This document shows, piece after piece, positions 38,401 to 53,400 of a DNA stretch of 64,000 nt (positions are counted from its first letter, which is position 1; the number at the start of each line of letters is the position of its first letter). Source of the stretch: Branchiostoma floridae (taxonomy: Eukaryota > Chordata > Leptocardii > Amphioxiformes > Branchiostomatidae); the NCBI RefSeq assembly GCF_000003815.2, contig NC_049980.1:35026132-35090131 (forward strand). The letters are read 5' to 3'. Position numbers and translations under genes: made by a program. Under the pieces are notes generated by a model that was not told the DNA's origin, did no database searches, and saw only the letters and a list, made by a program, of their open reading frames with translations.

Positions 38401-41400
38401 AAGGGATCAAAGGACTAATATAACACACCATTTACTCTTTGATTAACAAAAGAAACAAAGGGGTAATCAGGGCATTGATCTCAAAATTAATAGGATGATT
38501 GTAGAAGAATGCACATTCAAATGATTGCACATTTTGCCCATTAACGTGTTGTTACAGTAGTGAACAATTAGCATGATACAGACAATTTCTAAAAGGTTTA
38601 CATCACCCCCCTTGTATCTTACAAATACATATAGTAAATCTATACCATCAGCACATTATTTGATTACTACAAAATGAAATTCAATATGATTATTACTTCC
38701 CAATAACTCAATCTAATGAATAAAAGCCACATGTTGTTGCTTATCTGTCTCTATATTTATTGCTGCTGACCACTGTCGACTTCTTGGTTTAGTTTCTTGG
38801 GAAGCTGACTTAGATAAGTTACAAGCTCAGGCCCCATTGATGTGCCCTTAGGGAAAGTTACTAGACATTACTAAGTAATTTATGTCACGCTCAAGTCAGG
38901 TAGAAATAAACAGAGTAGATTTCTATCTTAAATATTGGTTTGATTAAAACTGAAGGCTATTACAAAACAGAATTACGTAACGGGAGGTGCCGTAGCATGG
39001 CACACTTTTTCATAATATCATGCTTGAACTGACGGAGCTCCATCGCTAGTTGTGAGAGAGTGGTCAAGTTTTGATGAATGATTTTTTAAACAATCATCTA
39101 AATAACATACATTTGTACTTTGATAAGAAATACATTCATATGGTTCACAAACCCTTTACCCTCTGTGTTACAAATGGCAAATTCTGTGAGACGTTTTTGT
39201 GAATGCACCTACCAATTTTGTGCTACGCTAGTTTACCCTAACTTGGTGTACTTTTGTAATTTTTCGGTCTTCTAACTCAACGAACATTTGAAGACCCATA
39301 TATTTGTAGCATTTTGTGAAGCTTTATTTCTTATGTGTATGACAGTTGCATGGCTGTTTTGTACAGGTCGTATATTTAGGGACACAAGCCGCCAATACCA
39401 ATAGTAACAGGTGACCTGTTGTGTCATTTACTGCTGGAAGACTGCTCAAAAAGTCAATACTAGTACATCTAAAACCAGTTGAATATGTTATGCCAAGTCA
39501 CTAACTCAAAAGGAAGTTGTATGCAAATGTAACTCATATGTAAATCATGTTTGGATAGTTACCAGGGCTTGAAATTCATTTTTGGGATTAGACCAGTGCA
39601 CCCAGCTTGAAAAATTGGGTGCACCAAAAAATTTTTGGGTGCACCATTTAAATTCAAGTAACAACCTAATAATAAAACTTATCAAATTCTTAAACAAGTA
39701 CCATGACAGACATTTTTACTATCTTTCTAACACTTAGATGTCAAGAATATGATAACAGCCATCTAACATTTTGCCAGGCATTGAATTGTAGCACCAAGAA
39801 AAAAACTTAAACTTGCACAAATGTGTTGAAAAGTAAACCATGATGCTGATTTCATCTTTTTACTCCAACTATAACAAGCTCAAATACCAGTTTCCAGGGC
39901 AACAAATCTAGCTAGCATGGCCATCCTGCATGTATAGAGTATATAGCAACAATTCCATGGCAACAATGAGGTTACAAACACTGTTAAAACCTTCTTGATC
40001 AAAAATATTTTTCAATTCCTTAGATATTAACATCGAGGAGCATAATTATACAGCTGTGTGAGAGTTTCCTAATGTTGTAATTTCCTGTTTACTTTTAGCG
40101 GTTACTTTTACCACCCATCATCAAATTGAATGAAGTATTCAAAAGAATTTCAATCTGTCATTAGTTTTGAAGTGAGACACTTACAGAAACACAAATAAGT
40201 GTTGTTAAAACATCTTTTCTTTTCAACTCAAAAGGCTACCATCAAGTTGAACTGTTTACAGGAACAATAATGACATTGTATTACAAAGGTATATAAGAGT
40301 AAGACAATGGGCAAGAGTTGTCTGTTCCCCATCTTGTTTGCATAGATAATTGTCTATTGCCATGAACAATAAGTTGATTACCTTGAGTGAAGATGAATGA
40401 GAATATGCCGAAGTGTAGTGTATATAAGTGTAGTCTCAAAGCCTGTTGCACACTTGCTATCGATTTTCGAGAGCGACTACATCGGATTCCTCACTGTGCA
40501 TTTTGCATATGATCTGAGATCAGCGTCCTGTTTGCGACTCCTTATCTCTTCCTGAGACCAACTTGAGTCTTCATACCTGCCTTTTTCAAGGCAACTACTT
40601 TTGGAGTTTAGTGCTTGTAAGAGCTTCAAGTTTTTGGAAAGTTTTACCTGCCTTTTTCAAGGCAACTACTTTTGGAGTTTAGTGCTTGTTTAGACTTGAG
40701 CTCCAAGTTTTTTTGAAAGTTTTACCTGCCTTTTTCAAGGCAACTACTTTTGGAGTTTAGTGCTTGTTTAGACTTGAGCTCCAAGTTTTTTTGAAAGTTT
40801 TACCTGCCTTTTTCAAGGCAACTACTTTTGGAGTTTAGTGCTTGTTTAGACTTGAGCTCCAAGTTTTTTTGAAAGTTTTACCTGCCTTTTTCAAGGCAAC
40901 TACTTTTGGAGTTTAGTGCTTGTTTAGACTTGAGCTCCAAGTTTTTTTGAAAGTTTTACCTGCCTTTTTCAAGGCAACTACTTTTGGTGCTTGTAAGAGC
41001 TTCAAGTTTTTGGAAAGTTTTTGTACAATCAACATCACCATGAGGCAGATTGTTGATGGTACGCATCGTGTACTGAACAAGCTTCCATCCTGGATTCGAG
41101 CACCGTATGATGATGAAGAAGAGCCTGTGACTGGGACAGGGAAAAGGTCCTTTGCAAGGACTTGGAGCAGGGGTGTTTCTGGCAAGCAGAACAGAGCAAG
41201 GTGGCCAAGTTTTACCAGCAATGATGCCATCCCGGTGAGTGTGAATTTTTGTCTTATTCGCTGAGATACAGAAAACAAATATTATTAATTCCCAATTCTT
41301 AACAGACTGTGAGCTCACTTCTTATTCAACTGTAATATATACTAATAGTGAGATTTTGCAGCTAGTTTTGTGAGCTGGCGGTCTGGGTTCAATTTCTGGT

Positions 41401-50400: not shown

Positions 50401-53400
50401 ATATGATCGATTCAAAAGATGCCAAAAAAATCATAGTTGCTAACATAGCCAACACCAGAACTGCAAAGACTTGGAGGCCTGACCACTTTCCTGACCATGA
50501 CTGGGATCAAAGTCGCACATACGCAGTAACTCCAATGACTCATCTATTCGTGGAAACAAAGTTAGTAAAGAAATCAACATTAGAACACTGTCTGAACAAC
50601 ATAGACATGCCCATTACAAAAGAGACAGTATTGCACATTTCAAGAACAGGTTCAGCAGTAACATTAATCAACTTATCAGCATCAGAACCCAGTACCACCT
50701 TTAGAGCATACAATGAATTGTTTCAATTGATGAGTTTCCATGCTCTGGATAGATTTTTTAGAAACCCAAAGACTAATAGACTGAAAGCTATATTCACATT
50801 TCTTGTTGATAATGGACCGGCAGAGGCACCAGCAAGTGAACTGTGTCAAATGTTAAACATTCGCCTTGTCGAGCTCCTACCTCTTGACAAGGTTGTACAT
50901 AAGTCATTTGCAGAATACCACAGTAAAAGAAATTATGTAGAAAGAGTTCATGCCATAGAAAACAAAGCAATTGAATCAAAACTGTTTGTTTGTTCTAAAG
51001 ATGCAGAAGTTTTTTCTACTGAATATTTCAAAAACATGGAGGCCATGGCTAAAGAAGTAATAGAAACCTTAGGAACCGCTAAATTTAATGGCACACCATT
51101 ACAATGCTTTAGGGGGGTAAAAGATAGTGAATATGTGTTTGATGACGAGAAAAACTTAAAGCACTTCTTATCTCTTAATGAAACAAATAAACAGTGTAGT
51201 GAAATGGAGTATAGACCTGTTAGAAATGAAATCTTTGACTGTCTTGTTCATACATGGGGTGCTGATGAAAACTATGTGGGATCTTACAGCAAAGACTATA
51301 GTGTACTTCACAATGAGTCAGGCCCAGAAAGAACCTCCTGGCTAAATAAATATACCACAGCAATCTATAGAACAGATAACAACTGGATTAGTAAAGATAA
51401 CCAAGAGCGATTTGAAAGGGAACCTTTACCTGATTATGTCCGATGGCTTGTGACTCATGGTGAAGTACACTATATGCCATATGAAAAAAGGAAACGGTTA
51501 CCACAGGGTGAGTGGGATGATACATCAGGTCTGTTCCTACCAAGTAGGGTTTTAGACCTGATGTATAAAGCATTTCCTGACCCTGGTGAGTTTACAGACC
51601 AGTTTGCCCTTCTAGCATTTGTTTCCATGGATGACTTCAAAACTTATTACAAAACACAAGAGGATCACTTGAAAAAACAGTATGAACAGGACAGTCAAAG
51701 AGGGAAATGGCATAATCATGAATTGTACAAATATACAGTAAAAGAACTTGTGGATAAGTGTTCAAAGTTAGACATTCCTGTTCAAGGTGCAAAGAAGGCA
51801 GAATTAGTGGAAAGATTAGCAAAAAATATGGGTCTAGGTGAACCAACACAAACCTTGTATGATGGAAATTTAAATAATGTCCCAAATTCAGTTACTGCTC
51901 TCACAAAAAAGCCACTGTCATATCTAAGGGAAGTTTTAAGAGCTGGAGGTCACTACTATGGTGGGTCTAGGGATGAACTTGTTACCAGAGTTATGTTGCT
52001 TAAACGGGGACAAGCTCACCTCATACCTAATTGTGAAATAGCAAGCTTGAAAACATTGATTAGAATTGCAAAAAAACTCATTTTGGCCCAGATTGACCTT
52101 TATACAATAGATGGTGAATTCACTTCAACAGAGCGAGAACATTCCTCACAAAACAGTTGTAAACTATCAGAGAAATGTCCCCGCAAGAGTGCAGCCGCAC
52201 ACAAACAATACAACAAGTCCATCATAAAGGCTGACTGCTTGAAAGAACCAGACCCCTTAGATCGACTCCCAAATCTGTTTGATAGCTTAAATGAATACAT
52301 AGATGCAATGAAACCCAAACAGCGTACAATTATGTCCTCTGTTAGTTACAAAGATACAGGAGGTAGTGGTCATATATCTTATGAAATGTACTTTCAAATA
52401 GGTGCTAGGGTTCAAGTTAAATGGTCAAACGAAGAAGTTGGGCACAGTGGATGGTCTGCTGGGTGGTATGTTGCTGAAGTCCAAAATTCTTGGGAAGATT
52501 TAGATGAAATAGAAGTTATGTATGATGAGGAACCAGGTTACACATATCCAATTGATGTAGGTGTATGGCTGGCAAAGGGCAAATTAGAACTTTTAACGCC
52601 AGTATTTGATTAGATGTTCGATGTTTTATAGATGAGAAAGCTGTATGGTGTAAGATAATAAACAATATGTAATATGACAGTTCATTTTTTTGTCACTTGA
52701 ATTCTGAGGATGGATACAATTATATTAATATAAGAGTTTAAAAATTTTGTAAGTTAATTCTTGTGTGCTGGGGTCTGTACTTTAAACTGTACATATGTAT
52801 ATATGGAGAGAATGATGTATGTGTATTCTGTCTTATTTTTGATATCAATAAACTTGTTGCTATTGAAATTACATTGTTCACTGTCCTTATTCAACCTTGA
52901 AAAGCTGCGTTCCTGATCATCAATTGGGTGAAACCCTTTCAANNNNNNNNNNNNNNNNNNNNNNNNNNNNNNNNNNNNNNNNNNNNNNNNNNNNNNNNNN
53001 NNNNNNNNNNNNNNNNNNNNNNNNNNNNNNNNNNNNNNNNNNNNNNNNNNNNNNNNNNNNNNNNNNNNNNNNNNNNNNNNNNNNNNNNNNNNNNNNNNNN
53101 NNNNNNNNNNNNNNNNNNNNNNNNNNNNNNNNNNNNNNNNNNNNNNNNNNNNNNNNNNNNNNNNNNNNNNNNNNNNNNNNNNNNNNNNNNNNNNNNNNNN
53201 NNNNNNNNNNNNNNNCAAAGACCATGAGCTTAATTCACAATTATATATACATACATATATACAACAATTATATATACATATTCATTTGACCCAACCCCCC
53301 TATCCGTTCCATATTCATTTGACCCAACCCCCCTATCCGTTCCGTATTCATTTGACCCAACCCCCCTATCCGTTCCATATTCATTTGACCCAACCACCCT

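Follow-up and report, generated by a model that had tools for sequence, protein, structure and literature searches.

A giant intact gene was found antisense within the first intron of COPS2, in a 64,000-nt stretch of the Branchiostoma floridae genome (NC_049980.1:35,026,132-35,090,131, forward strand; hereafter the window, to which all positions refer). By predicted fold and residues, its product is a transposase of the DDE/RNase H type, carrying at its N-terminus an SGNH esterase-like domain, a ubiquitin-like domain (Ubl) and a possible deubiquitinase (Table 1). We hold with moderate confidence that it is the transposase of an animal DDE DNA transposon family that is matched by no Pfam DDE model. 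What speaks for a transposon is the set of homologues, the catalytic triad and its fold, the SAP motif, the proteases, the collinearity with a second lancelet protein, the intact frame and the antisense nesting. The gene had been noticed in an initial annotation of the same DNA; that annotation did not include the COPS2 nesting, the relatives (cnidarian and other) that carry OTU or a Ulp1-like protease, or the LxGG end of the Ubl.

Table 1. Features of the giant gene and of the intron that contains it (positions in the window)
Feature	Positions	Strand	Remarks
Exon 1	41040..41234	+	aa 1-65; ATG start; GT donor, phase 0; aligned to the N-terminus of P0067
Exon 2	42635..42916	+	aa 66-159; first part of SGNH/GDSL hydrolase; GDS at aa 71-73, GTNN at 127-130
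Exon 3	43900..44253	+	aa 160-277; remainder of SGNH domain; DSLH block at aa 210-213
Exon 4	44533..44625	+	aa 278-308; basic linker; junction gap-free against P0067
Exon 5	44910..52613	+	aa 309-2875 and stop; open frame of 2,567 aa (7,704 nt)
18-bp minisatellite, in frame	44966..45557	+	codes for TSAD(Q/S)P repeats; Tandem Repeats Finder
Ubiquitin-like domain	45708..45956	+	ends PLNGG at ubiquitin's C-terminal register; GG = aa 656-657
USP-like cysteine protease region	45984..46832	+	C677, CxxC 777/780 and 827/830, H893, D906; motifs only
Tandem 483-bp duplication, in frame	46832..47799	+	two 161-aa blocks, 97% matches
Family-wide transposase region	49059..52610	+	aa 1692-2875; 66 homologues, 64-row alignment, model
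RNase H-like integrase core (predicted)	50373..51098	+	model residues 439-680; D2145 at 50418, D2275 at 50808, E2319 at 50940
SAP DNA-binding motif	51729..51824	+	PF02037, E 8.6e-7
C-terminal Tudor-like domain	52374..52598	+
COPS2 (COP9 signalosome subunit 2) intron 1	31542..54147	-	22,606 bp; splice sites read directly

One gene of five exons

The gene was confirmed to be real, intact and unusual. When rebuilt from the sequence, its five exons join in phase 0, with GT...AG at all four introns, to form a reading frame of 2,875 codons closed by a stop codon, in agreement with the unbroken frame first annotated. A 78-bp tandem repeat (5.4 copies, 40574-40987) stands directly 5' of the start codon and could hold regulatory or subterminal sites.

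A search with exon 5 residues 250-700 (numbered in its open frame) returned a single protein, that of Branchiostoma floridae LOC118431000, isoform X1 (P0067; 2,095 aa, itself a gene prediction). Residues 1 to 2114 of the spliced protein align with it in a single stretch, at 43% identity, and the ten residues on either side of all four exon junctions are free of gaps. Both proteins present, in the same order, the SGNH domain, a low-complexity repeat (another one in P0067, at the position of the TSAD(Q/S)P minisatellite), the Ubl with its LxGG, the USP-like region and the N-terminal half of the transposase, but P0067 ends before the DDE triad, the SAP motif and the Tudor-like part. Identity is 63% for the SGNH exons, 65% for the transposase N-half, 45% for the USP-like region and 37% for the Ubl.

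Because the alignment spans the junctions without gaps, we assign the SGNH exons and exon 5 to a single gene; only the same error in both predictions would make this wrong. The alternative would be that the SGNH exons (41.0-44.6 kb) are a separate gene and the join an annotation artefact. An ATG does open exon 5 right after the acceptor, and a GDSL_2 match was present in one of the 33 long homologues scanned (P0067, precomputed domain), a count in which upstream exons may be absent from the gene calls of the other homologues. We consider such a chimera very improbable, since P0067 has the identical join, with gap-free junctions, and at the exon 4/5 junction a Phe where the giant gene has the Met of exon 5.

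The modules before the transposase

The esterase-like domain initially read from motifs was recovered by Pfam on the spliced N-terminus (PF13472, E 2e-10, above the cut-off), with the GDS, GTNN and DxxH blocks at aa 71, 127 and 210. The N-terminus of P0067 weakly matches (E 0.0022-0.029) PAF acetylhydrolases and the LINE ORF1 esterase of PDB 4c1b, which we take to be of LINE origin; these have the SGNH fold in common with the giant gene product, but without an attached transposase.

A beta-grasp fold was found for the next domain, as expected if it is ubiquitin-like, the name first given to it. Its LxGG lies at ubiquitin's register directly before the protease, which suggests self-cleavage, i.e. 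the protein may cut itself; the Ubl-GG-protease arrangement lends itself to a simple bench test of this.

The marks of USPs (peptidase C19) are a Cys box, a His box and zinc-binding CxxC pairs. The Cys, His, Asp and CxxC pairs on which the initial annotation had based its USP call are indeed present, and C677, H893, D906 and both CxxC pairs are all kept in P0067, but the region has no profile or sequence match in Pfam, NCBIfam or PDB, and it is a putative USP. A fold search was uninformative because the model of the region has a pLDDT of about 22-53. Judging from its motifs, it is a possible deubiquitinase.

The transposase and its homologues

The transposase region (aa 1692-2875) gave a model with a mean pLDDT of 79.4; Foldseek alone returned no match under E 0.001 for it. 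The model was checked for an RNase H fold in residues 2100-2350, and one was found, with an Asp on strand 1, an Asp after strand 4 and a Glu on the helix after strand 5. These are the residues proposed from the outset as a D,D,E triad (Asp2145, Asp2275, Glu2319), and they are conserved across the homologues: among 67 rows, the first Asp is found in 65 of 65, the second in 64 of 66 and the Glu in 65 of 65 rows having a letter, with a spacing of 43 between the last two in 59 of 65. The SAP motif seen earlier has its Pfam match (Table 1), and the Tudor-like assignment was probably right.

The 66 homologues (P0001-P0066) all match at E 1.6e-61 or better, their cores being 35-50% identical in local alignment; those named include Clytia hemisphaerica P0049, Paramuricea clavata P0059 and P0060, and Porites lobata P0062. 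Some clusters stand for many sequences (229 for P0053, 197 for P0010), numbers that may reflect repeated sampling instead of genomic copies. Domains were scanned in the 33 long homologues out of 67 (P0067 included), for which 11 families are listed. SAP was found in 20 of the 33 and an N-terminal OTU in six; by eye, further homologues retain pieces of the OTU region. P0062 has a source name and a motif of the Ulp1 type at the N-terminal place, and P0060 is fused to hAT-type domains, according to precomputed domains. The family has the D,D,E core in common with the giant gene, and SAP in the 20 members just counted; OTU (in the six) or a Ulp1-like domain (in P0062) replaces SGNH-Ubl-USP, and in many members the N-terminus is short or unassigned. 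A quick tree computed from 65 rows pairs the giant gene with P0067 on a long branch (support 100); the six rows with an OTU Cys box fall on both sides of the root, which is an arbitrary midpoint. The simplest reading of these sequences is that different proteases, directed at ubiquitin or SUMO, have come to occupy the place before the transposase.

One further homologue, P0050 (EukProt), bears the source name Vertnin and combines an OTU-like N-terminus with the same transposase core. VRTN of vertebrates may be related to this transposase family as a domesticated form.

Named transposon classes or domestication

The initial annotation knew of no named transposon class with this set of domains, which is consistent with Pfam and with the portion of the literature consulted, Repbase being outside the comparison. 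No Pfam DDE, rve or KDZ match was obtained in the pieces of the giant gene, an absence compatible with distant membership, and none of the three is among the 11 families of the long homologues, where hAT dimerisation appears in one member.

Transposases fused to ubiquitin or SUMO proteases have already been noted in Ginger1, in Mutator and in a T. vaginalis protein (PMC2836005). The latter, XP_001314237.1, is described there as transposase_11 plus peptidase C19 and offers a precedent for a transposase-USP fusion; compared by description, its transposase family differs by name. Ginger1 is, in the same source, an integrase-type transposase with OTU or Ulp1, as in some relatives of the giant gene. 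One alternative places the giant gene within a DDE superfamily that already has a name, e.g. Ginger, as a divergent member; an integrase-type fold and the same accessory proteases would be common to both, and this reading does not exclude the others. We find it somewhat unlikely in view of the Pfam results above, hAT dimerisation being confined to one homologue, and of the architecture: the protease is N-terminal in the giant gene and C-terminal in Ginger1, and Ginger1 has its own H2C2 zinc finger ahead of the catalytic core, YPYY and GPY/F motifs, none of which was found in the giant gene with the patterns as written for the search. Among 68 sequences, a loose H2C2 pattern occurs somewhere, at any position, in 10, YPYY in one and a loose GP[YF] in 34, of which 33 hold HGPF, a motif placed after the Glu in the consensus sequence of the family. 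We regard the giant gene as a variant of a transposase with a fused ubiquitin-pathway protease, possibly from a new superfamily.

Domestication is the main rival to the transposon reading. Under it, SGNH, Ubl and protease parts would have been joined to an old transposase, and the product, having lost its mobility, retained for a role in the host that combines binding to DNA or chromatin with deubiquitination. The intact frame with four introns is in line with this, as are the lack of convincing inverted repeats in the flanks and the similar degree of conservation of the SGNH domain (63%) and the transposase N-half (65%) between the two lancelet proteins. Of 148 strongly conserved columns, 20 are deviant in the giant gene, which ranks 61st of 64 rows; this counts against the transposon reading, as does the end of P0067 ahead of the triad. 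By eye, at least one of the 20 deviations (column 215) is common to P0067. However, the catalytic triad is kept, some relatives look repetitive, and an overall identity of 43% to P0067 is more like that of diverged element families than that of a conserved orthologue. Domestication is, in our opinion, possible if rather doubtful.

If, as we prefer, the gene is that of a transposon, the element sits, or was left behind, in COPS2 intron 1. Judging from fold and family, the helical N-part of the transposase, the SAP motif and the Tudor-like domain would bring the protein to the element ends and to chromatin, and the D2145/D2275/E2319 site, from its predicted fold and residues, would cut and join DNA with two metal ions. 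The N-terminal place would be held by the SGNH esterase, Ubl-GG and USP-like region in the lancelet branch, and by OTU or a Ulp1-like protease in some relatives. The protease module might remove ubiquitin, or a protein like it, either from the transposase itself or from host factors of repair and silencing, in the manner of the Ginger1 OTU/Ulp1, for which a part in transposition was suggested, perhaps through activation of repair factors (PMC2836005). A bolder version, speculative and in our judgement unlikely, is that of an undescribed animal DDE superfamily repeatedly exchanging OTU, Ulp1-like and USP-like proteases, the lancelet protein being a polyprotein that cuts itself after LxGG and so frees the transposase from the SGNH-Ubl fragment. 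Should self-processing be true, the freed fragment might itself be attached to targets.

To our knowledge, the role of ubiquitin/SUMO proteases fused to transposases is unsettled. With a constant transposase and an apparently exchanged protease, this role becomes testable; the property common to the exchanged proteases is, by family, the removal of ubiquitin-type marks.

Genomic setting and search for element ends

Intron 1 is flanked by the first two COPS2 coding exons (54148-54201 and 31350-31541, minus strand), whose joined peptide matches COP9 subunit 2 with an E of 6e-38. The antisense nesting of the giant gene within it fits an insertion without proving one. More CSN2-like peptides were seen by eye in minus frames 25328-25684 and 26719-27033, with no Pfam match there.

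A search between 36.0-41.0 and 52.6-57.0 kb for 14-base terminal inverted repeats accompanied by a target site duplication of 4-10 bases found none, a test with little power since five shuffles also gave none. Inverted matches between the flanks (33.5-41.0 versus 52.6-58.0 kb) had a best score of 14, against 13-15 for the shuffled best; 13 matches scored 13 or more, versus 1-4 in the shuffles, and at least 5 of the 12 flank matches shown come from one minisatellite. The 3' flank searched contains a gap of 273 N (52943-53215). Within the window, tblastn returned the giant gene itself only. Since convincing terminal inverted repeats were not found in the flanks, we can only infer mobility.

Two same-strand minisatellites built from similar 33-bp units (CAACCCCCCTATCCG...), at 32529-33067 and 53279-53929, lie one towards each end of intron 1 and flank the giant gene. 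Elsewhere in the window, an SH2 domain exon closest to the tyrosine kinase CSK (E 5e-33) was found at 8768-9121 on the minus strand, where visual reading also suggests kinase-like peptides at about 5.5-8.0 kb (6980-7336 has no Pfam match), and sperm-tail PG-rich (SHIPPO) repeats, presumably of an ODF3-like protein, were found at 57243-57767 on the plus strand (E 1.2e-20).
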